From an uncultured Clostridia bacterium (lineage in GTDB: Bacteria; Bacillota; Clostridia; Oscillospirales; Acutalibacteraceae), in the NCBI GenBank assembly GCA_946184295.1, contig CAMHEZ010000014.1, positions 1 to 57,621 of the forward strand: a stretch of 57,621 nucleotides of DNA, in the 5' to 3' direction. A program made the translations under genes and the position numbers. The notes under the pieces were generated by a model, which was not told the origin of the DNA, did not search any database, and saw only the letters and a program-made list of their open reading frames with translations. Shown piece after piece: positions 6,729-57,621 of this stretch (position 1 is its first letter; each line of letters begins with the position of its first letter).

Positions 6729-6763
6729 TATCATAAAAAAACGTCATAGGAGTGGTGACTTTG

Positions 6764-8044
6764 ATGAAAAAACGGGATATCTCTCTGCGCGGCAAGATCA
6801 TTTATTCGGTCTATCTGCGCAACCATACGCCGGAAGGAACCTTCGCGGCGCTGGAGAATGATCTGGACAGGATCAAGGCATTGGGCGCCGATATCATCTG
6901 GCTGCTGCCGATTTACCCCATTGGGCAACTGAATAAGAAAGGCGAACTCGGATGTCCGTATTCCATTCAGGACTATCGGGGGATCAATCCGGCATACGGC
7001 ACGCTGGACGATCTGAAGCACCTTGTCGCCGAGATCCACCGGCGTGGCATGCTGTGTATCATTGATGTGGTTTATAACCATACGTCGCATGATTCCGTAC
7101 TGCGGGCTGAGCACCCCGAATATTTCTACAAGACGCCCGACGGCAGCTTTGGCAACCGCTACGGCGATTGGACGGACGTGATTGATCTGGATTACAGCAG
7201 CAAGGCGTTGTGGCGTTATCAGATCGACACGCTGAAATACTGGGCGGGGATTGTGGATGGCTTCCGCTGCGACGTTGCCTCGTGTGTGTCGGCTGAATTT
7301 TGGGAGCAGGCGGTTGACGAAGTGGCGGGGGTGAATCCCAAGGCTGTCTGGCTGGCGGAATCGGTTTACATCGGCCATGTGCAGTATGCCCGTGAATGCG
7401 GTTATCCCGTGGCAACCGATGCGGATTTGTACCGTGCGTTTGATATGCTGTACCCGTATGATGTGCAGGATTATTTTGACCGTTATCTGAACGGGACGGG
7501 CAAGCTCAGTGATTACATGAATATGCTGACTTTTCAGGAACACATTCTGCCGTCGGATTATATCAAGGTGCGCTTCATCGAGAACCACGACACACCCCGT
7601 GCCGCCAAGCGGTTCCCCGATAGTATGGTTTTGCGCAACTGGCTGGCGTTTACCTATTTCCAAAAGGGCACCACGCTGCTCTATGGTGGGCAGGAATGGC
7701 AGAATACCGCGTATTGCACGCTGTTTGACAAGGCGGTATTTGCGCGCGACCCGAAGAAGAATCTCACCGATTATATGATCAAACTGGGGCAGATCAAGAA
7801 GCACCAGCTGCCTGTCAGTGCGGACTTCTCGGCGTCAGCGGACGATGAGAACGAGGTGGTGACGGCGTATCTGACGCAGCCCGACGTGAAATTTGTGGGT
7901 GTGTTCAGTATGCGGGGCAAGGCAGCGTTGGCCGAAGTCAAGGCGCCGGACGGCGAATATACCAACGAGATTGACGACGTCAAGATTACCGTCAAGGGCG
8001 GCAAGCTGCATTGCGACGGTACGCCGGTCATTTTCCGTGTATAA
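6764..8044 (+). CDS. Intracellular GH13 alpha-amylase family enzyme
   Basis: A 426-residue (beta/alpha)8-barrel glycosidase without signal peptide, so it acts on imported or stored alpha-glucans. The four GH13 regions are present: IIDVVYNHTS (I), GFRCDVASC with the nucleophile Asp (II), VWLAESVY with the acid/base Glu (III) and FIENHDTPR with the third Asp (IV). A short beta-rich C-domain closes the protein. The sub-specificity (alpha-amylase, oligo-alpha-glucosidase or transferase) cannot be read from this. ATG 6764 is chosen with AGGAG at 6748-6752; GTG codons at 6752/6755 are too close. The gene is monocistronic between its own promoter and terminator. Confidence 0.9.
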   Translation: MKKRDISLRGKIIYSVYLRNHTPEGTFAALENDLDRIKALGADIIWLLPIYPIGQLNKKGELGCPYSIQDYRGINPAYGTLDDLKHLVAEIHRRGMLCIIDVVYNHTSHDSVLRAEHPEYFYKTPDGSFGNRYGDWTDVIDLDYSSKALWRYQIDTLKYWAGIVDGFRCDVASCVSAEFWEQAVDEVAGVNPKAVWLAESVYIGHVQYARECGYPVATDADLYRAFDMLYPYDVQDYFDRYLNGTGKLSDYMNMLTFQEHILPSDYIKVRFIENHDTPRAAKRFPDSMVLRNWLAFTYFQKGTTLLYGGQEWQNTAYCTLFDKAVFARDPKKNLTDYMIKLGQIKKHQLPVSADFSASADDENEVVTAYLTQPDVKFVGVFSMRGKAALAEVKAPDGEYTNEIDDVKITVKGGKLHCDGTPVIFRV

Positions 8045-18938: not shown

Positions 18939-19835
18939 ATGGGTGAAAAGAATTGTCAGTCTGTGGGTGCGGGCAATCTGGGCAGCAACAGCGGTGCCTG
19001 CCCAGAGAGACCGCGCAGAGATTGCTTTAAGGAAGCCGTGTGCATCAACGCGGGCAGAGTGTACGACGCCTGCCGCGACAGAGAGTGCTTGGAGGACATA
19101 CAGGTATTTTTCGTCGAGCGCGATCAGGACATTATCAACAATGCGCTGGGCGTGAAGCTCAAATCCGCCGAGGTTATGAACGTGCTGATTGACACCGAGC
19201 CGGTACCGTTCAACCGCGGCTACTACTCGGTAGACATCACCATCTATTTCTGCGTCAAGCTGGATGTGACGGTCTCGCCGATCAGCCCGTCCTGCGAAGT
19301 GCGCGGCCTGAGCATCTACAACAAGAAGGCCATTCTCTACGGCAGTGAGGGCAGCGTCAAGGTATTCAGCTCGGATTTCGTGTGCGGCGACGACGACGAT
19401 CAGAACATGCCGGCGGGCAACCTGCCGCGCGCCACGGTTCAGATTGCCGAGCCGATCGGCCTGGGCGCCAAGCTGGTGCCCGCGTGTGACATGAATTATT
19501 GCTGCTGCTGTGTGCCAAATCGCGTGGCAAGAATGTTTGCGGGCAGCTTCGATCACAGAATGGCCGAGAAATCTGTCAAGGTCACGCTGGGTGTATTCAT
19601 GATTATCCAGCTCGAAAGACAGGTGCAGATGCTCGTTCCCGTGTACGACTTCTGTATGCCGGATAAGATTTGCGCGGACGCGGCCAACGAAAGCCCCTGC
19701 GACCTCTTCAAGAAGATCAGCTTCCCGGCGGACGAATTTTTCCCGCCCAAGGCCGGCGATCTGCATTGCAGCGAGGCACAGATGATGCGCGGCCAGTCGG
19801 TTGGCGCGGGCAACTGCGGCTGCGGTAACGGCTAA
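18939..19835 (+). CDS. Cys-rich conserved clostridial protein of unknown function
   Basis: A 298-residue soluble protein without signal peptide or membrane segment. It has about 22 Cys, with clusters at the N-terminus (CPERPRRDCFKEAVCINAG), a CDMNYCCCCVP run near residue 190 and NCGCGNG at the end. I recall similar proteins in many clostridia (EPVPFNRGYYSVDI, LYGSEGSVKVFSS, VTLGVFMIIQLERQVQ, NPCDLF/SPCDLF and DEFFPP blocks), none with a known role; I could not check this. The motif SVGAGN occurs both at residues 7-12 and near the C-terminus, so the two ends share sequence. AGGAGGA (18924-18930) precedes the ATG. Metal binding or a spore-coat role are guesses only. Confidence 0.75.
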   Translation: MGEKNCQSVGAGNLGSNSGACPERPRRDCFKEAVCINAGRVYDACRDRECLEDIQVFFVERDQDIINNALGVKLKSAEVMNVLIDTEPVPFNRGYYSVDITIYFCVKLDVTVSPISPSCEVRGLSIYNKKAILYGSEGSVKVFSSDFVCGDDDDQNMPAGNLPRATVQIAEPIGLGAKLVPACDMNYCCCCVPNRVARMFAGSFDHRMAEKSVKVTLGVFMIIQLERQVQMLVPVYDFCMPDKICADAANESPCDLFKKISFPADEFFPPKAGDLHCSEAQMMRGQSVGAGNCGCGNG

Positions 19836-21292: not shown

Positions 21293-21323
21293 TTGACTCT
21301 CTCCCAACGTCATGGTTTATGAT
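21293..21323 (+). promoter_or_regulatory. MerR-type promoter with 19-nt spacer
   Basis: TTGACT (21293-21298) and TATGAT (21318-21323) are 19 nt apart, the over-long spacing that MerR-family activators correct by DNA untwisting. The spacer CTCTCCC...TGGTTTA has imperfect dyad character, like TipAL/BmrR-class operators. It implies that the regulator encoded next activates itself. Confidence 0.65.
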
Positions 21324-21356
21324 ATAAAGCACACGGGAAAACAGATCAGGAGGCCG

Positions 21357-22106
21357 ATGAGATTGACAGACAAAATGACGGTGCATGAAGTCAGCGAACT
21401 GACAGGCGTAAGCATTCGCACGCTGCGGTATTATGACCAGATCGGGCTGCTGCCGCCGACCGAGGTGACGGAGGCGGGCTATCGGCTGTATGACGATACG
21501 GCACTCTACCGCCTGCAATGTATTATGCTCTTTCGGGAGCTGGAGTTTCCGCTCAAACAAATCAGGGATATCCTGGACAGTTCCGATTTTGACCGCAACC
21601 GAGCGTTGGAACAACAGATTACGCTGCTGGAAATGAAGCGCGAGCATCTGGACAATCTCATCGACCTTGCCCGTGGCATTAAAGGATTGGGGGTGAGAAA
21701 ATTGAATTTTAACGTATTTGACACCAAAAAGATCGACGAATACGCGCGGCAGGCAAAGGAATCGTGGGGACAGACGCCCGAGTACAAGGAATTTGAGCAA
21801 AAATCGGCAGGCCGAACGCAGGAGGAAGACCAAAAGCTGTCGGTCGAATTTATGGGCTTTTTTGCCGAATTTGGCGCGTTGCGTGATTTAGAACCGTCCG
21901 ATGAGAGGGTACAGGCACAGGTGAAGAACATGCAGGATTTTATTACCGAACATCTTTACACCTGCTCCGACAAAATCCTTCTGTGTCTCGGCAAGATGTA
22001 CGCAGGCGGCGGTACGATTTCCGAAAATATTGACAGCGTGGGCGGCGAAGGTACGGCGGCGTTTGCTGCCGCGGCGATAGACGCCTACGTGGCGCGTCGC
22101 CAATGA
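21357..22106 (+). CDS. MerR family regulator with TipAS drug-binding domain
   Basis: About 249 residues: N-terminal MerR winged helix (MTVHEVSELTGVSIRTLRYYDQIGLLPP, shown here as consecutive shorter blocks MTVHEVSEL and VSIRTLRYYDQIGLL), dimerisation helix around residues 80-115, then a TipAS domain (EYARQAKESWGQTPEYKEFE) ending in a globin-like helical bundle. TipAS domains bind thiopeptide and other antibiotics and switch on resistance or efflux genes. No obvious drug exporter follows, so its target may be only itself or lies elsewhere. AGGAGG (21348-21353) is only 3 nt from ATG 21357; TTG 21363 at 9 nt is an alternative start. Confidence 0.88.
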   Translation: MRLTDKMTVHEVSELTGVSIRTLRYYDQIGLLPPTEVTEAGYRLYDDTALYRLQCIMLFRELEFPLKQIRDILDSSDFDRNRALEQQITLLEMKREHLDNLIDLARGIKGLGVRKLNFNVFDTKKIDEYARQAKESWGQTPEYKEFEQKSAGRTQEEDQKLSVEFMGFFAEFGALRDLEPSDERVQAQVKNMQDFITEHLYTCSDKILLCLGKMYAGGGTISENIDSVGGEGTAAFAAAAIDAYVARRQ

Positions 22107-22376: not shown

Positions 22377-22423
22377 ATCATTTTGAGTTGCCTTGCTTCC
22401 GCTGTAGAAAAGAGGGAATTGCC

Positions 22424-24427
22424 ATGTTTTCAAAACGCATACTCGCCGGGCTGACAGCGGTGGTTATACTGCTGTGCGCCTGCCAAGGCGGAACGACATC
22501 GGCTGAAAAGACGACAAAAACCGTATCTGACACGACGGTTACTGTGACGGGAAACGAGACAGCTGTCAAAAATGACTTTGCTGTGTCGTCCCCTTCAGGG
22601 CATCTGACCGTGACGGTTCACCGCAATGACGAGGGCACGGTATCCTATGCCGTGACGGACAAAGAACGCCTGACGATACTGGCTTGTTCTGCCGTGGGAT
22701 TGCAGACCGATGTGTGTGATTTTTCCGAGGACTTGTCCTTTGTCTCACAGAAGCCTGTGACTGAAATTGACGAAACCTATCACACCCGTTCGGGCAAGCA
22801 CAGTCAAGTGCGCAACCATTACCGTGAGACCGTGCTGACGTTTGCAAAGGAAAAATATTTCTTTGATTTGACCGTCAGAGCTTATGACGACGGTTTCGCC
22901 TATCGCTTTGGCGTGCGGGCAAAAGACGGCGCGCCCCATGAACTGCAAGTGATAAAAGAAATATCCCGCTTTGCGCTGCCGGCGCAATCGACAATCACGG
23001 CCCAGCAGGTAACGGATTTAACCGCCCCTTTTAATTATGAAAACCGGTATGTAACGGCCTCGGTAGAATCGTTTGACACCGCGAAACCGTCGTATCTGTG
23101 CTTTCCGGCGCTGGCAGACCTTGCGAACAGCGCGGGTGAGCCTGCGGGAAAATACCTGCTGCTGTCGGAGGCGGAGCTGTTCGGCGACAGTTATTTCGGG
23201 TCTCTGCTGTGTGCGCAGGGAAGCAACGCTTTTGACCTGCACGCCGCGCCGCAGGTCAATTCGGATATGCCCGCAGTGATACGTACCGATTTTACTTCGC
23301 CGTGGCGTTATGGCATTTACGGCGATCTGGGGGATATCGTGGAGAGTGACCTGACCGAAAATCTCGCGCCGGCCTTCGCGGGTGATGACTCATGGGTCGA
23401 GCCGGGGGTGAGTGCGTGGATGTGGCTGTCCGAGGGCTTCTACGGACAGCGCAATATCAGTATCATCAAGGATTACGTCGATCTGGTGGCCGAAATGGGC
23501 TGGAAGTATCTCATTCTCGATGAGGGCTGGCAGCCGGATTCCCGCCAAAAGGGCAAGGCTTATAATGGGTATTTTTCCTACTGTGACAAACTGGTGACTT
23601 ACGCTGAGCAAAAGGGCGTAGGGTTTATCGTCTGGGTGAAATACGTTGATCTCGATACGCCGGAGGAACGCGAGATTCTGCGCGAGTGGGCGGCCAAGGG
23701 CATCAAGGGCATCAAAGCGGATTTCTTTGACAATGAGGATCAGCAGACCATGGCGGATCTCAAGGCGATTTACGAGATGTGCGGGGAATGTCATTTGCTG
23801 GTCAACTGCCACGGGGCGGGCAAACCCACCGGCGAGCGCCGCACCTATCCTCATGTCATCAACCGCGAGGCGGTCAACGGCGAGGAGTTTGGAGCGTTTT
23901 TTGTGCGCGACGCGGTGATATGGCCCTACACGCGCAATGTGGTGGGGCCGATGGATATCACGCCGCGGCTGTATCCTACCGGAAAAAAGGGCACCAAAAC
24001 GACACTGGCCGCGCAGCTCGCCTGTCCTATCATTTTTGAATCGGGCATTCCCTGCATGGCGGGGGATACGACCGACTACAGGGGATTCAACAGACGTGAT
24101 TTCTTCCGGGATTTGCCGGCTTCGTGGGATGATACCAGATTTCTGGACGGTACGCCGGGGGACAGCGTGACCTTGGCCCGCCGGGCAGGTGACAATTGGT
24201 ACGCGGCCACCCTCACGCTCACGGCTAAAAAAGGACAGACGATGCCGCTTTCCTTCCTCGGCGAGGGAACCTATGAGGCCACTGTCTACAGCGATAAAAC
24301 CAAACGGGAAATTCAGATCGACACCCGTATCGTGACAAGCGACGACACGCTTACCTACGATCTGCCGCCCGAATCGGGCTATGTGGTGAAATTCACGCCG
24401 TACACTTCCACAGATGAGAGGGGATAG
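22424..24427 (+). CDS. GH97 family alpha-glycosidase, lipoprotein
   Basis: A 667-residue secreted enzyme with a lipoprotein signal (AVVILLCAC, lipid-modified Cys about residue 20) and a Thr/Ser-rich linker. The rest follows the GH97 plan: N-terminal beta-sandwich, a barrel from about residue 330 (SAWMWLSEGFYG, YLILDEGWQP), then a small C-terminal sandwich. GIKGIKADFFDNEDQ has an Asp (about D433) where retaining GH97 alpha-galactosidases keep the nucleophile and inverting SusB-type members do not, and INREAVNGEEF supplies the conserved Glu. This favours a retaining alpha-galactosidase-like activity. AGAGGGA precedes ATG 22424. DUF445 and PfkB genes follow closely. Confidence 0.88.
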   Translation: MFSKRILAGLTAVVILLCACQGGTTSAEKTTKTVSDTTVTVTGNETAVKNDFAVSSPSGHLTVTVHRNDEGTVSYAVTDKERLTILACSAVGLQTDVCDFSEDLSFVSQKPVTEIDETYHTRSGKHSQVRNHYRETVLTFAKEKYFFDLTVRAYDDGFAYRFGVRAKDGAPHELQVIKEISRFALPAQSTITAQQVTDLTAPFNYENRYVTASVESFDTAKPSYLCFPALADLANSAGEPAGKYLLLSEAELFGDSYFGSLLCAQGSNAFDLHAAPQVNSDMPAVIRTDFTSPWRYGIYGDLGDIVESDLTENLAPAFAGDDSWVEPGVSAWMWLSEGFYGQRNISIIKDYVDLVAEMGWKYLILDEGWQPDSRQKGKAYNGYFSYCDKLVTYAEQKGVGFIVWVKYVDLDTPEEREILREWAAKGIKGIKADFFDNEDQQTMADLKAIYEMCGECHLLVNCHGAGKPTGERRTYPHVINREAVNGEEFGAFFVRDAVIWPYTRNVVGPMDITPRLYPTGKKGTKTTLAAQLACPIIFESGIPCMAGDTTDYRGFNRRDFFRDLPASWDDTRFLDGTPGDSVTLARRAGDNWYAATLTLTAKKGQTMPLSFLGEGTYEATVYSDKTKREIQIDTRIVTSDDTLTYDLPPESGYVVKFTPYTSTDERG

Positions 24428-26359: not shown

Positions 26360-28819
26360 TTACAGTGCCACGATCATGGCGGTCTTGGCGGGAATATGCA
26401 GTCCGCCGCCGAAATCGACGTGTCCACCGCTAATCAGATCAGTGCCGTTGCCCGCACCCGCGTCAAAATGTGCGGTATAGGGCGCATCATCCATATTCAG
26501 CGCGAAGATCACGCGCTCGCCGTCAAACTCACGGCGGAACACCAACTGTTTGGAATTAATATGCAGTTGCTTGTAGCTGCCGCGGCAGAGAGCGGCAGAG
26601 GATTTACGTACAGCATAGAGACGGCCGATATATGCGGAAAGTGCGTTGCGGCTGCTCTCGGCCAGCTCCGCGGAAAACGCGGGACGAAGCGCATCGTCAC
26701 CTTGCCCCTTGTCCGCTGTCACGCCAAATTCGCTTCCGTAATACACCGAGGGAATACCCGGCATGGCAAACAGCAGTGCATAGACCAGCGGCAGGTTGCC
26801 TTTGTCGGTGAGAATTGAGGCAATGCGTGTCACGTCGTGGTTGTCAGCAAAGCAATAGAGATTCTTGCCTTTGTAAATCGTCCACTGCTCGTCCGCGAAC
26901 TGGCGGTTGAGGGAATAACCGATTTCGTGCATATTGGCGCAGTTGAAGGAAGAATACAATCCCTTGTAGCATTCGTAGTTGGTCACGGAATCCAGCATCG
27001 CGTCGTTGCACCAGATGTTGTAATCCCCGTGCAGGCACTCGCCCAGCAGGAAGAAGTCCGGCCACTTGCCTTTGCAGAAGCTCCGCAGCTCGCGCAGGAA
27101 ATCGCGGTCAAGGCAGTAGGCCACGTCGAGGCGCAGACCGTCGATGCCGAACTCATTGACCCAGCCCTCGATACAGTTGAAAATGTGCTGCTTGACACTG
27201 GGGTTGCGGAGGTTGAGCTTGACCAGGTCATAGTGACCCTCCCAGCCCTCATACCAGAATCCGTCGTTGTAGTTGGAATTGCCGTCAAACCGGATATTGA
27301 ACCAATCCTTGTAGGGAGAATCCCAGCGGTGCTGCTTGACGTCGTTGAAGGCCCAGAAATCGCGTCCTACGTGGTTGAATACACCGTCCAGAATGACCTT
27401 CATGCCGCGGCGGTGCAGTTCCTCGCAGACCTCATAAAAATCGCGGTTGGTGCCGAGACGGCGGTCAATCACACGATAATCGGCGGTGTCGTAGCCGTGT
27501 TTGGTGGATTCAAAGACCGGACCAAAATAGACGGCGTTAGCGCCCAGTTCGCTCAGATGAGCCGCGAAGGGAATGACGCTCTTGATCTTGCCCGTCGGCT
27601 GAGAAGTGAAATCATTATAGTGGTTTTCGTCGCAAAAGCCCAGCGGATAAATGTGGTAGAAAGCCGCGTCACGGTACCAATCCGGGGCATTGAGCTTGCG
27701 CTCGGCTCGTGCAAATTCCTGTGTGACAGGCGGGGCGGAAATTGCCGCCGCGTTGTCCGGGATTACGTTGTCAGCGTTTTTGGTTGCGCCGCCGGAAACG
27801 GCCGTTTTGGCCTTCTTGGGCGGAGCGGCGGGAATGTGATTGTCACCCGGATAGACCTGCCGCCAATCCGCGCGCAGACGGTCGCAGGTGTCGAGGATAT
27901 CGTAGGACTGCCAGGTGGGATACAAGGGCGATTCGGTCAGCCCTTTATTGAGGCAGTCCACCACGTGTGCGATCTCATAGGTGTACTTTTTCTCAAGGCT
28001 GTCGGAATCGCTGTATTCGCGGATGATTCTGCCGTCCCGCATGACATATGCCGCGCTCGCGCAGTTGAAATTGGGGAGTACAATGACGCCTTCGGTGCCG
28101 ATGATTTCCGCCTGATTGGCGTTGTATTCAAAGCCGCAGGACACGGAAGCCGTGCCGCCCTTGTAAAATTTCATGACGGCGGAGGACTGCCAGTCAATGC
28201 CGTTTTCACAGTGCACCGCTGTAGAACGGATATCCCCAGGCCGGCCTCCCAGCAGCCACTGCGCCAAAAAGATGGGATACACGCCCAAATCCAGCAGCGC
28301 ACCGCCGCCGAGTGCGGGATTGATGGTGCGGTCCTTGGTGTCGTAGGCCATCTTGACAAAAAAAGACGCGTTGACCTCTTTGACTTCGCCGATAATGCCC
28401 TCGCCAATCCAGTCGTAAGCATTCGTAATGGCGGGCAGGAAACGCGTCCACATGGCTTCCATAAAAAACACGTTTTTCTTCTGCGCTGCTTCGATGACAG
28501 CAGAAGCCTGTTTGGCATTGAGCGCTACGGGTTTTTCGCAGAGTACCGCTTTGCCGGCGGCAATGGCGGCGAGTGCGGTATCGGCATGATTGGTGTGTGG
28601 GGTTCCGATGTAAACGATGTCAATCGTTTCATCTTCCAGCATGGTCTGAATGTCATCATAGGCTGCGGCAATGCTAAATTCCGCCGCGAAGCGCTGCGCG
28701 TTCTCCATGCTGCGGGAGCAGACGGCGCCGGCCTCAGCCTTTTCGGTCAGCGCCAGCGCACGGCAGAAGGTGTGGCAGATTCTGCCGGTGCCGACAATGC
28801 CAAACCGTTTTTTGTTCAT
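26360..28819 (-). CDS. Fusion: Gfo/Idh/MocA oxidoreductase + GH13 glycosidase
   Basis: A single 819-residue frame. Residues 1-330 are a Gfo/Idh/MocA NAD(P)-dependent dehydrogenase: Rossmann GIVGTGRI (8-15), EKP (95-97), FMEAMWTRFLPA and GGGALLDLGVYP (171-182) as in the dihydrodiol/xylose dehydrogenase group. Residues 331-370 are an Ala/Pro/Lys-rich linker. Residues 375-819 are a complete GH13 enzyme: DGVFNH (478-483), GLRLDVAY with nucleophile D565, LLGECLHG with acid/base E594, ADNHD with D662, plus a C-terminal beta domain. No signal peptide, so cytosolic. Start 28819 is set by GAGGTGAT 7 nt upstream. It has its own promoter. Both halves keep their key residues, so the fusion appears functional; substrate unknown. 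Confidence 0.9.
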   Translation of the reverse strand: MNKKRFGIVGTGRICHTFCRALALTEKAEAGAVCSRSMENAQRFAAEFSIAAAYDDIQTMLEDETIDIVYIGTPHTNHADTALAAIAAGKAVLCEKPVALNAKQASAVIEAAQKKNVFFMEAMWTRFLPAITNAYDWIGEGIIGEVKEVNASFFVKMAYDTKDRTINPALGGGALLDLGVYPIFLAQWLLGGRPGDIRSTAVHCENGIDWQSSAVMKFYKGGTASVSCGFEYNANQAEIIGTEGVIVLPNFNCASAAYVMRDGRIIREYSDSDSLEKKYTYEIAHVVDCLNKGLTESPLYPTWQSYDILDTCDRLRADWRQVYPGDNHIPAAPPKKAKTAVSGGATKNADNVIPDNAAAISAPPVTQEFARAERKLNAPDWYRDAAFYHIYPLGFCDENHYNDFTSQPTGKIKSVIPFAAHLSELGANAVYFGPVFESTKHGYDTADYRVIDRRLGTNRDFYEVCEELHRRGMKVILDGVFNHVGRDFWAFNDVKQHRWDSPYKDWFNIRFDGNSNYNDGFWYEGWEGHYDLVKLNLRNPSVKQHIFNCIEGWVNEFGIDGLRLDVAYCLDRDFLRELRSFCKGKWPDFFLLGECLHGDYNIWCNDAMLDSVTNYECYKGLYSSFNCANMHEIGYSLNRQFADEQWTIYKGKNLYCFADNHDVTRIASILTDKGNLPLVYALLFAMPGIPSVYYGSEFGVTADKGQGDDALRPAFSAELAESSRNALSAYIGRLYAVRKSSAALCRGSYKQLHINSKQLVFRREFDGERVIFALNMDDAPYTAHFDAGAGNGTDLISGGHVDFGGGLHIPAKTAMIVAL

Positions 28820-28886: not shown

Positions 28887-28915
28887 ATTATAACAAAAGC
28901 ATATGCGCATTGCAA
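28887..28915 (-). promoter_or_regulatory. Promoter of oxidoreductase-GH13 fusion gene
   Basis: Minus strand TTGCAA, 17-nt spacer, TATAAT (plus-strand ATTATA 28887-28892, TTGCAA 28910-28915). The spacer holds the palindrome GCATATGC. The leader is about 60 nt. Confidence 0.75.
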
Positions 28916-29281: not shown

Positions 29282-29771
29282 TGCCGCTCACCCGATCCTT
29301 TAATTCCAGATAGACAGCATACAGCTCGGTATTTTCAAAACCGGTCATGCCTTGCGTCAGCTCCTCGGAAAAGAGGCGCAGCGTGCGATAAGGCAACTTG
29401 ATCGCGAGAATATACCCGTTGCCAATCGCGTCGTTGGTGAGCGTGTCACGCGTGTAATAGATGTTTTTCACGTCCTTACAGTCGAAAATCACCGACCGGC
29501 CGCCGAAGGTCAGCCTGACACGCCCGCTGTCGCTGAACTGTGCCACACCCTCGTTTTTGAGTCCTACGCCGCCGCGCTTGTTCATCAACACCACGCCGCA
29601 CACCAGAAACGCCACCGGAATTGCTACCGTCACAAAGAGATTGTTGCCCAGATGCCGCGCAATGGCGGACGACAGAATCCACCCCGCCAGAAACAGCAGA
29701 ATACAGACGATAATGCCCGCGATTTCGTAGTCCTTATTTTTGCATTTAAACGTGATTGTTTTCACTGTCAT
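29265..29771 (-). CDS. Two-helix membrane protein with PH-like C-terminal domain
   Basis: A 168-residue protein with hydrophobic segments at about 17-38 and 44-63, then a ~100-residue beta-rich domain (VRLTFGGRSVIFDCKDVKNI, YILAIKLPYRTLRLF) that resembles bacterial PH-like domains; no function known. It overlaps the end of the GH2 gene by 26 nt. The ribosome site AGGTGA is 1 nt from ATG 29771 but 6-7 nt from the in-frame GTG at 29765, which may be the true start. Confidence 0.65.
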   Translation of the reverse strand: MTVKTITFKCKNKDYEIAGIIVCILLFLAGWILSSAIARHLGNNLFVTVAIPVAFLVCGVVLMNKRGGVGLKNEGVAQFSDSGRVRLTFGGRSVIFDCKDVKNIYYTRDTLTNDAIGNGYILAIKLPYRTLRLFSEELTQGMTGFENTELYAVYLELKDRVSGNGQSA

Positions 29772-32199
29772 TCACCTGCGGCTCTTCGGTTTTGGAGATA
29801 TTGAGTTCCTTGGCCGACTTGCGCACCACACTGAGCGGAATGTTAAATTCGCCCATCGACTGTGTGGCAATCGTGACATTGGCCTGCTTGCGCCCGCCCT
29901 TGGTGCGCACATAAAATGCTGTCGCACCGCCTGTGAGCGGTATGGTGGCGGGACCAACCACCTCAATGGCGCCGTCTGTACTCACTGTCAGACAATCAGC
30001 GAAATAGGTCAGACGGTTATCGTTGCTGTCTACCGCTACCACTTCGATGCGTGCCGCGTCGTAGGTTTCGCCGTGAATCAGCTGACTGCCGCTGACATTG
30101 ACTTTAAATTTTGCCTTGGTCACAGGTTCTTTCACCACCGACGCGACTACCCGGCCGCCCATCAGTCCTTCAAAACGGAACACTGTCTTGACGGCACGTG
30201 TTACCGCATACTGCTCATACAGGCGCACCACCTCGTCTTCAGACAGCTTGCTGGCGTTTTTGTAGGTAAAGAGCGCCATAAATTCCTCCATCTTGCTCTG
30301 CTGCTTTTCAGACACAGGCGCATCGTCGCTCAATTCGCTGATTGCCGTGCGGATATCCTGCTCGGTTTTCTGGTCGAACCCCTCTTTGACCGCCATTTTC
30401 TTGCCAATGAGATCGTCGATCAGTATCGGCGGGTGGGGCATATAAGGATACTTGTCGCGATCGGGCGCAAATTCGGCCACCAGCTCATCGTTTTTATAGA
30501 GCCTGACGCTGTCGCAATTGGTAAAGGCGTAAACATTGCCGATTACCCCGAACTTGTGTTCGCCCGCCAGCATGGCGGACGAAATTTCCAGTACAGGCTT
30601 GACTGATGTCTGGCTGAGGTAAACAGCCGCCGCTAATTTCGGCACGCGGTTGACGTCGCAAATACCATAGGGGCAAATGCCGTCATCGCCGCCGAAGCTC
30701 GGGTGGGCATTGTAGTCGCTCAGACACCAGCCGAACGTGCCGATGATTTCGTTGCCGCCGTAGGCTGCGTCGATCATGCGCGCATGGCTGAGTGCCTGTT
30801 CCACCAGTTCTTTCTCCCCGCCAAAGCTGCGCGCGGGATAGAGCGGGCCGGTGTGCTCGGTAATCATGACTGGGGATTTTCCCAGGGAGATTTCCTCTAT
30901 GTTGTAAGCAAACTTTTCGTTCAGAGCGTGCTTTTCATAGTCGTTGAAGCCATAGACTTCTTCTAGCAGGTCGCTGCCCTTGAAATTTCTCACGCCGTAC
31001 ATCGGGCGCGAGGCGTCCAGGCTGCGCACGGTGTCGCACACACGGCGATTGACCTTTGGGTTGTCCTTGGTGTCGTCGGTACGTGTGCCCCACATGACGA
31101 TACACGGCTCGTTTCGCTGCGCCAGCACTGCTTCGCGCACATTGCCCACCAATGTATCCAGCCATTCGCCGCCCTCGGCATGCTTGCTGCCGGGCATATC
31201 GGCAATGACCATCAGTCCGATTTCATTGCAGCGCTCCAAAAAATGCTTGCTTTGTGGATAATGTGCCGTTCTCACCGCGTTGCAGCCAAGCGACTTGATA
31301 AGATCCGCATCGCCCTTCTGCACTGAGGCCGGCATGGCAAAGCCCTCACGGGCGTAATGCTGCATACGGTTCACACCCAGCAGCTTGATCCGCTTGCCGT
31401 TGAGATAAAAGCCCTGCCCGTCCACTTTGACCTGACGGAAGCCAATGGTATAATCCAGCTCATCGCCGCCCGCGAGCGTGACCTTGAAGATGTAGAGTTT
31501 TGGGGTCTCGGGGGTCCAAGGCGTCACCTCCGCGGAGACCGTCCAGGAGACATGATAATTGGGCTGTTCCGCCTTGTACTGGCAGGAGCCGAGTCGCTTG
31601 GTTCCGTCATACAGGGAGAAAATCAGCTTCCGATCACCGACATCACCGCCGATCTCGCCGGTGATGTCGAGTTTCCAGCCCTTGTCGGTCAGCATGGGGT
31701 TGATGAACGTATCCTTGATGTAAAGCTGCGGCACAGCCTCCAGCCAGACGTCCCTGTAAATGCCGCCGTAGCTCAGAAAATCCACCGGTGCGCCGTAGGG
31801 GGGCGTGTCGGCGCGTTCGGAGGTGTCCACGATCACGGTGAGCTTGTTTTCGCTGTCGGTGAGAAATTCGGTAATATCCCCGCTGAAGCCCGTAAAACCG
31901 CCCTTATGGGCGAACGCGGGCTTATCGTTGACAAAGACTGCCGCACAGCTCATGACACCGTCGAAGTGCAGGAAGACGCGCTTGCCCTCCATCTCGTCGG
32001 GCACGACAAAAAGCTTGCTGTACTGTACGATCTTGCTGTCGTCCTCGCCGCTGAAATAATGCAGCTTTCCGCTGCCGCTGTTATGGGGAATATCCACAGG
32101 GCGCACGGAAAAATCAAAGTTTTCGTTTTTGCTTTTGGCGGGTGAATAATCCGGCGTAAACCGCCACCCGAAATTCAAGCCGGTCCTGAATCTAAGCAT
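29746..32199 (-). CDS. GH2 family glycoside hydrolase with altered acid/base site
   Basis: An 817-residue cytosolic protein (no signal peptide) with the GH2 order: N-terminal jelly roll (about 1-155), Ig-like domain (about 158-255), TIM barrel (about 260-560, LLGVNRMQHYAREGF), then two C-terminal beta domains. The nucleophile Glu is E448 (VMITEHTGPLYP), and the barrel end FGWCLSDYNAHPSFG fits a known beta-galactosidase-like clade. Where that clade has the acid/base pair Asn-Glu (MWGVRINES) this protein reads MWGTRTDDT, so the expected acid/base Glu is Asp (D376) and Asn is Asp. Activity may be weak or changed. GGAGGA precedes the start at 32199. Probably cotranscribed with pyrE. Confidence 0.85.
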   Translation of the reverse strand: MLRFRTGLNFGWRFTPDYSPAKSKNENFDFSVRPVDIPHNSGSGKLHYFSGEDDSKIVQYSKLFVVPDEMEGKRVFLHFDGVMSCAAVFVNDKPAFAHKGGFTGFSGDITEFLTDSENKLTVIVDTSERADTPPYGAPVDFLSYGGIYRDVWLEAVPQLYIKDTFINPMLTDKGWKLDITGEIGGDVGDRKLIFSLYDGTKRLGSCQYKAEQPNYHVSWTVSAEVTPWTPETPKLYIFKVTLAGGDELDYTIGFRQVKVDGQGFYLNGKRIKLLGVNRMQHYAREGFAMPASVQKGDADLIKSLGCNAVRTAHYPQSKHFLERCNEIGLMVIADMPGSKHAEGGEWLDTLVGNVREAVLAQRNEPCIVMWGTRTDDTKDNPKVNRRVCDTVRSLDASRPMYGVRNFKGSDLLEEVYGFNDYEKHALNEKFAYNIEEISLGKSPVMITEHTGPLYPARSFGGEKELVEQALSHARMIDAAYGGNEIIGTFGWCLSDYNAHPSFGGDDGICPYGICDVNRVPKLAAAVYLSQTSVKPVLEISSAMLAGEHKFGVIGNVYAFTNCDSVRLYKNDELVAEFAPDRDKYPYMPHPPILIDDLIGKKMAVKEGFDQKTEQDIRTAISELSDDAPVSEKQQSKMEEFMALFTYKNASKLSEDEVVRLYEQYAVTRAVKTVFRFEGLMGGRVVASVVKEPVTKAKFKVNVSGSQLIHGETYDAARIEVVAVDSNDNRLTYFADCLTVSTDGAIEVVGPATIPLTGGATAFYVRTKGGRKQANVTIATQSMGEFNIPLSVVRKSAKELNISKTEEPQVNDSENNHV

Positions 32200-32281
32200 G
32201 TTCTTCCTCCAGAAAGTCAATCGTTGTCAGCCATCTGCCGTCAAATAGAAACGCCGGATACTGACCGTTAATGACTTACCA

Positions 32282-57568: not shown

Positions 57569-57621
57569 GGGGCATTAGCGCAGTTGGGAGCGCGCAACAT
57601 TCGCATTGTTGAGGTCAGGGG
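57569..57621 (+). tRNA. tRNA-Ala(CGC), cut by the right edge
   Basis: Acceptor GGGGCAT, D-arm GCGC-AGTTGGGA-GCGC, anticodon stem CAACA/TGTTG around the loop TTCGCAT (anticodon CGC, reading GCG alanine codons), variable loop AGGTC and the first half of the T-stem AGGGG. The T-loop and 3' acceptor strand are beyond the window. G3 is present, as required for the G3-U70 identity pair of tRNA-Ala, but position 70 cannot be seen. Confidence 0.9.

Follow-up and report, generated by a model that had tools for sequence, protein, structure and literature searches.

The stretch of DNA analysed here (the window) comprises 57,621 nucleotides of contig CAMHEZ010000014.1 (assembly GCA_946184295.1) from an uncultured Clostridia bacterium of the family Acutalibacteraceae, and its minus strand contains a gene in which an oxidoreductase of the Gfo/Idh/MocA superfamily and a glycosidase of family GH13 share a single open frame. 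The coding part runs from 28819 down to 26363, is closed by a stop codon at 26360-26362 and specifies 819 amino acids (Table 1). An earlier reading of the bare DNA sequence (hereafter the original prediction) had described one 819-residue frame with a complete dehydrogenase and a complete GH13 enzyme. This agrees with the Pfam analysis, in which all domains score above their cut-offs, and the motifs named in that reading are found at GIVGTGRI 7-14, EKP 95-97, GGGALLDLGVYP 171-182, D565, E594 and D662; the linker, given there as ~40 residues, is rather ~50 residues long. These features support a true two-enzyme fusion, in which both active sites look intact.

The frame could also begin at a TTG codon at position 28915. 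The ATG at 28819 is the likelier start, because the motif GAGGTG (recognised by eye) directly precedes it and a promoter-like site lies at 28915-28887, although the latter is weak on its own, since the region has four such sites where 2.0 are expected from shuffled sequences. The terminator scan reported one candidate against 4.1 in shuffles. The 3' end of the fused gene faces a pfkB-type gene on the opposite strand; its upstream side is occupied by a frame of 168 codons that has no Pfam match and by a GH2 gene.

The two halves of the fused protein

The N-terminal half comprises the Rossmann domain GFO_IDH_MocA (PF01408; residues 5-120, E-value 4.6e-28, 98.7 bits against a cut-off of 24) and the C-terminal alpha/beta domain GFO_IDH_MocA_C3 (PF22725; residues 134-246, E-value 8.3e-20, 71.5 bits against a cut-off of 27), i.e. 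both constituents of the Gfo/Idh/MocA superfamily above the curated cut-offs. Conservation was checked at 21 key positions over both halves in 19 fusions retained from a scan of species genomes (see below), and 19 of the 21 are identical throughout. In the oxidoreductase half these are G7, G10, G12, R36, E95, K96, P97, G172, G173, D177, Y181 and D209, and thereby include the lysine of the EKP motif (K96) and the catalytic Tyr/His that follows GGGxLxDxG in the superfamily (Y181); W124 and R126 are kept in 18 of the 19 fusions, the exception being locus L047. The invariant R36 aligns with R37 of dihydrodiol dehydrogenase, which we take to have a role in NADP binding, and the oxidoreductase half probably prefers NADP.

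Both sequence comparison and the predicted fold identified dihydrodiol/D-xylose dehydrogenase as the closest characterised relative of solved structure. The dimeric dihydrodiol dehydrogenase, which is an NADP+-dependent D-xylose dehydrogenase (PDB 2o48), is a single enzyme of ~330 residues, to which the fusion adds the GH13 half; the uncharacterised Enterococcus protein 3e9m, another close relative, is also ~330 residues long and has no GH13 half. The equivalog cut-offs of NCBIfam were not reached for Gfo6 D-xylose 1-dehydrogenase (111.2 vs 350 bits) or for the inositol 2-dehydrogenase IolG (105.7 vs 355 bits). Glucose-fructose oxidoreductase, aldose-aldose oxidoreductase and the 3-ketoreductase KijD10 belong to the same superfamily with lower similarity to the fusion (the latter two also occur among the fold matches listed), and their chains of 339-433 residues are too short to include a GH13 half. 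Passages of PMC2228372 describe the fungal enzyme XYD1, ~30% identical to pig dihydrodiol dehydrogenase, as using NADP+ and not NAD+, with xylose as the best substrate and glucose at 25%, several free aldoses being accepted. The catalytic base in the superfamily is generally a tyrosine or histidine, according to the part of PMC9795676 that deals with it.

The C-terminal half is matched by the Pfam Alpha-amylase domain (residues 390-712, E-value 3e-51, 175.5 bits against a cut-off of 22). The D-E-D triad that characterises GH13 (D565, E594, D662) is present in all 44 rows of the alignment, and D478, H483, R563, D565, E594, H661 and D662 are identical in 19/19 fusions. The predicted fold is that of neopullulanase/cyclomaltodextrinase, and the NCBIfam equivalog cut-offs for maltodextrin glucosidase and cyclomaltodextrinase were not reached (196 vs 568 and 192.8 vs 540 bits, respectively). 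Identity to the neopullulanase/cyclomaltodextrinase/TVAII group (1jf5, 1ea9) and to cyclic maltosyl-maltose hydrolase (5zxg) is ~31%. The fusion has no Pfam match to the CBM34-like N-terminal domain of the neopullulanase group, whose place is occupied by the oxidoreductase. This domain does not define the whole group, because cyclic maltosyl-maltose hydrolase (5zxg, 471 residues) matches the GH13 half from its residue 22 on. A loop at residues 513-529 (GNSNYNDGFWYEGWEGH), situated between a helix (489-500) and a strand (532-535), sets the GH13 half apart from 1jf5, 1ea9 and 5zxg: 14 of its 17 positions are invariant in the 44-row alignment and two more, S515 and G525, are conserved at >=90%. 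It is modelled with a predicted local distance difference test score (pLDDT) below 50, and may be a clade-specific substrate-binding loop.

Table 1. Features of the fused gene and of the rest of the window
Feature	Position	Strand	Remarks
Whole fusion gene	26360..28819	minus	819 codons + stop; intact in 15/18 genus genomes
Gfo/Idh/MocA oxidoreductase half	27836..28819	minus	residues ~1-328: Rossmann domain 5-120, C-terminal domain 134-246 and onward
Linker	27686..27835	minus	residues ~329-378, variable length and sequence
GH13 half	26363..27685	minus	residues ~379-819: catalytic barrel + C-terminal beta domain
Conserved GH13 loop	27233..27283	minus	residues 513-529, GNSNYNDGFWYEGWEGH; alignment + model confidence
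Promoter-like site	28887..28915	minus	TTGCAA-N17-TATAAT, TG before second hexamer; pattern scan, 10/12 matches
Pyruvate kinase	381-2144	plus	added C-terminal PEP-utilising mobile domain
Second GH13 gene	6752-8041	plus	430 aa, bacterial alpha-amylase C-terminal domain
MerR-type regulator	21312-22103	plus	TipAS antibiotic-recognition domain; Pfam
GH97 gene	22388-24424	plus	all three GH97 domains; Pfam
GH2 gene	29749-32220	minus	824 aa, long C-terminal part outside Pfam matches
Partial tRNA	57569-57621	plus	cut by window end; Rfam, only match

Occurrence and descent of the fusion

The search for the same domain order, recommended in the original prediction, was carried out on species genomes and confirmed 456 loci, the best 80 of which (78 distinct) were analysed. 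The fusion is present in 19 of the 78 distinct loci (L029-L047; L044 is cut by a contig end), and the other 59 encode the GH13 enzyme alone at 57-62% identity. Within the genus, the whole frame is carried by 15 of 18 genomes, namely that of the window and 14 further ones (75-81% identity); several of these are the same records as among the 19 fused loci, so the two counts must not be summed. One genus member originates, per its record, from goat omasum. Four distant fusions in Oscillospiraceae (L040, L041, L042 and L047) exhibit 45-54% identity over the whole protein and 39-44% in the oxidoreductase half. In the family sample, 8 of 300 genomes contain a frame of more than 800 codons that includes the oxidoreductase half, four of them in the genus and four outside, the latter being the same L040-L042 and L047. 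In the search for the fusion beyond the family, matches were obtained in 31/394 genomes of the order sample (E <= 1e-50), 32/391 of the class sample and 9/398 of the phylum sample (both 1e-55); in these samples, which overlap one another and are not exhaustive, the window's own frame is the only one listed that is longer than 436. An apparent second fusion in genome G241 (open frame 690) was rejected, as its extra length is an upstream open stretch and the normal start lies later in the frame.

The original prediction had itself named a possible refutation, namely homologues regularly separated by a stop or frameshift at this point, which would indicate an assembly artefact. No stop was found in the matched frame of any of the 15/15 intact copies, and in the genus genome G007 the match ends at base 19157 of 19159 and continues from base 3 of a different contig, so that this split is explained by the contig end. 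All named carriers come from records of uncultured bacteria or from metagenome assemblies, an observation in favour of an assembly or binning error; the same joint, however, recurs in 15 genus genomes and four distant ones with a free-running linker, and we consider an artefact practically inconceivable and the explanation ruled out.

As to the conservation of frame and linker among relatives, also raised by the original prediction, the frame is kept and the linker is not: none of its 50 positions is invariant in the 19 fusions, and its length, counted from the position of W319 up to that of W381, varies between 32 and 65 residues. The linker is probably flexible, pLDDT being below 50 at residues 337-371. 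Within the genus (seven pairs), the ratio of non-synonymous to synonymous substitution rates (dN/dS) amounts to 0.03-0.06 in the oxidoreductase half and to 0.026-0.071 in the GH13 half where dS is unsaturated, and the linker exhibits the highest non-synonymous proportion of the three regions in all eight pairs compared. These values, obtained by a simple count method, are rough because dS is saturated in some cells; as read from the sequences, strong purifying selection acts on both domains within the genus and the linker drifts.

In the tree of the oxidoreductase half (19 fused and 44 unfused sequences), the fused proteins form one clade with an SH-like approximate likelihood ratio test (SH-aLRT) support of 99, by which the fusion is shown to have arisen once as far as this tree goes. 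The unfused GH13 relatives (59 loci from Oscillospiraceae, Butyricicoccaceae, Lachnospiraceae and others) belong to the same clade as the GH13 half and have the same hydrolase length, with open frames of 439-537 codons lacking the oxidoreductase half; in 58 of the 59 loci a stop could be located, and at most 102 upstream codons are open there, so a long N-terminal extension is absent. One of these relatives (L067:6022-7314) contains a stop inside the matched stretch, and is either a broken gene or a misjoined match. A pair of separate genes that might have preceded the fusion was not found: 66 loci with an unfused oxidoreductase (51 different places, 2.6-19.5 kb) contain no GH13 relative nearby (E <= 1e-5), and the locus DNA of the 59 unfused GH13 genes contains no oxidoreductase relative (E <= 1e-8). 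In G345, which has the closest unfused oxidoreductase by E-value in the genome searches (43%), no GH13 relative lies beside it.

Genomic setting

Gene neighbourhoods were clustered for 19 loci (14 fused and 5 with an unfused oxidoreductase) and the window, with annotation taken from a few of these loci, and separately for the 59 unfused GH13 loci and 6 fused ones (25 largest clusters, with 26 of the 65 loci listed); neighbouring genes were called by a crude longest-frame rule, which kept the wrong strand at some loci, e.g. L142/L042. A trio of mltG-, 5-FCL- and DJ-1/PfpI-like genes (named from L137) adjoins the fused gene in 9 of 10 genus relatives, where GNAT, lysyltransferase-like, thymidylate kinase and lysS genes are often near as well; the trio is not beside the fusion in L138 or in the window. 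A conserved operon was considered and rejected, since the neighbours differ between lineages and none points to a sugar oxidation pathway. Elsewhere in the window, the GH97 gene exhibits an NCBIfam match to retaining alpha-galactosidase below the cut-off, and its N-terminus resembles a lipoprotein signal by eye.

Of the 18 genus genomes searched, 16 have a Gfo/Idh/MocA match, and in 12 of these the fusion is the sole one. Further matches were reported below the cut-off in G010 and G016 and above it in G007 and G011, and G001 and G009 have none at all. A phosphorylase was found in 17 of the 18 genus genomes.

Proposed function and its alternatives

We propose, with a probability of roughly 55%, that the fusion is a cytosolic bifunctional enzyme, in which a maltodextrin hydrolase is joined to a sugar dehydrogenase that depends on NADP(H) and works on the same sugar pool. 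The GH13 half, predicted to be a retaining enzyme of the neopullulanase/cyclomaltodextrinase/maltodextrin-glucosidase kind, would cut short intracellular maltodextrins to glucose or maltose; the oxidoreductase half would act on this pool as an NADP(H)-dependent pyranose dehydrogenase using the K96/Y181 pair; and the flexible linker would tether the halves so as to keep them close and in a 1:1 ratio, and not form a channel. The cytosolic location is suggested by the N-terminus, in which no signal sequence is recognisable by eye; we infer likewise the sugar, the direction of the redox reaction and the coupling between the two reactions.

Several findings weigh against this proposal. None of the clustered neighbourhoods contains a sugar-oxidation operon, the neighbours being mostly housekeeping genes and varying between lineages. 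G6PDH, SGL-type lactonase, 6PGDH and KDPG aldolase were each found in 0/18 genus genomes, several of which are incomplete (0/8 of the good ones matched in each search), with controls positive in 9, 8, 9 and 8 of 14 known genomes, respectively; gluconate made from glucose therefore has no usual outlet in the genus, and export of the aldonate or other enzymes could handle it. The same absences put the source of NADPH in the genus in question. The fusion is missing from genus genomes G001 (98% complete) and G009 (78%). The oxidoreductase half is less conserved than the GH13 half (55/328 vs 161/441 invariant positions), and its dN/dS in the distant pair L040/L042 is higher (0.32 vs 0.17, with 0.82 for the linker). 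In the GH13 tree (fused proteins vs 59 unfused and 6 outgroup rows) a branch separates the fused sequences from the rest, but its support is no more than 43, so that the single origin rests on the oxidoreductase tree; the long branches of L041 and L047 meet in this tree. The predicted template modelling score (pTM) of the whole model is 0.58, and the relative placing of the two domains is not fixed by it. Finally, in L047 (genome G128), the most divergent fusion, W124 and R126 are replaced by S and P, and its oxidoreductase substrate may differ from that of the other fusions.

It is rather doubtful that the halves were joined for shared expression or dosage only, with the oxidoreductase acting on an unrelated carbonyl or sugar and no intermediate in common. 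Against this, co-expression alone is usually provided by an operon, and a fusion of one origin has been retained between oxidoreductase halves that share as little as 39-44% identity; the missing neighbourhood of a joint pathway, the missing pre-fusion gene pair and the several aldoses accepted by the fungal enzyme in the passages of PMC2228372 would fit such an arrangement. An unlikely alternative is that the oxidoreductase is a structural module which replaces the neopullulanase N-terminal domain and makes the dimer, its redox activity being secondary or lost. It does stand at the place of that domain in enzymes of the 1jf5/1ea9 type (their match starts at ~residue 123) and evolves faster than the GH13 half, and part of PMC9795676 reports that one characterised Gfo/Idh/MocA enzyme oligomerises with the help of its C-terminal domain. 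A mere scaffold, however, would not need the cofactor motif, K96 and Y181, all invariant in 19/19 fusions, and none of the unfused GH13 relatives (0/59 loci) has such a domain.

The missing outlets for gluconate make reduction or chemistry at C3 worth considering. We speculate, as a quite unlikely possibility, that the protein could be a redox-coupled glucan hydrolase, which interconverts keto and normal sugars (at C3 or C1) on a GH13-bound maltoside and so salvages or primes oxidised maltodextrins, in bacteria without a visible oxidative pentose phosphate or KDPG route. Likewise unlikely is a variant in which the redox step comes first, the oxidoreductase reducing keto-sugars (3-keto-maltosides, keto-glucose) for cleavage by the GH13 half or making a keto-glycoside. 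The latter had been suggested in the original prediction, but with a D-E-D triad of its own retained in the GH13 half, such an intermediate is unnecessary. The original prediction had also drawn an analogy to redox-assisted glycosidases (GH109 and NAD-dependent sulfoquinovosidases), Gfo/Idh/MocA proteins in which the oxidoreductase fold itself cuts the bond. The superfamily membership holds, but the analogy is weakened, as the closest characterised type acts on free aldoses and the fusion has a separate GH13 half with its own triad; neither GH109 nor the sulfoquinovosidases were named among the matches listed (60 of 78 PDB sequence matches and 50 fold matches), an absence that is no proof.

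No description of a Gfo/Idh/MocA-GH13 fusion was found in the open-licence literature of PubMed Central. Both halves come from well-known families and the new thing is their joint. A fusion of two domains is a direct hint that they share a function. The present case connects NAD(P)H chemistry with the breakdown of maltodextrins in uncultured Oscillospiraceae/Clostridia, and it offers a single clonable protein, mutable in each half, for identifying the sugar and the benefit of tethering. Should the coupling be demonstrated, the large alpha-amylase family GH13 would gain a redox branch.
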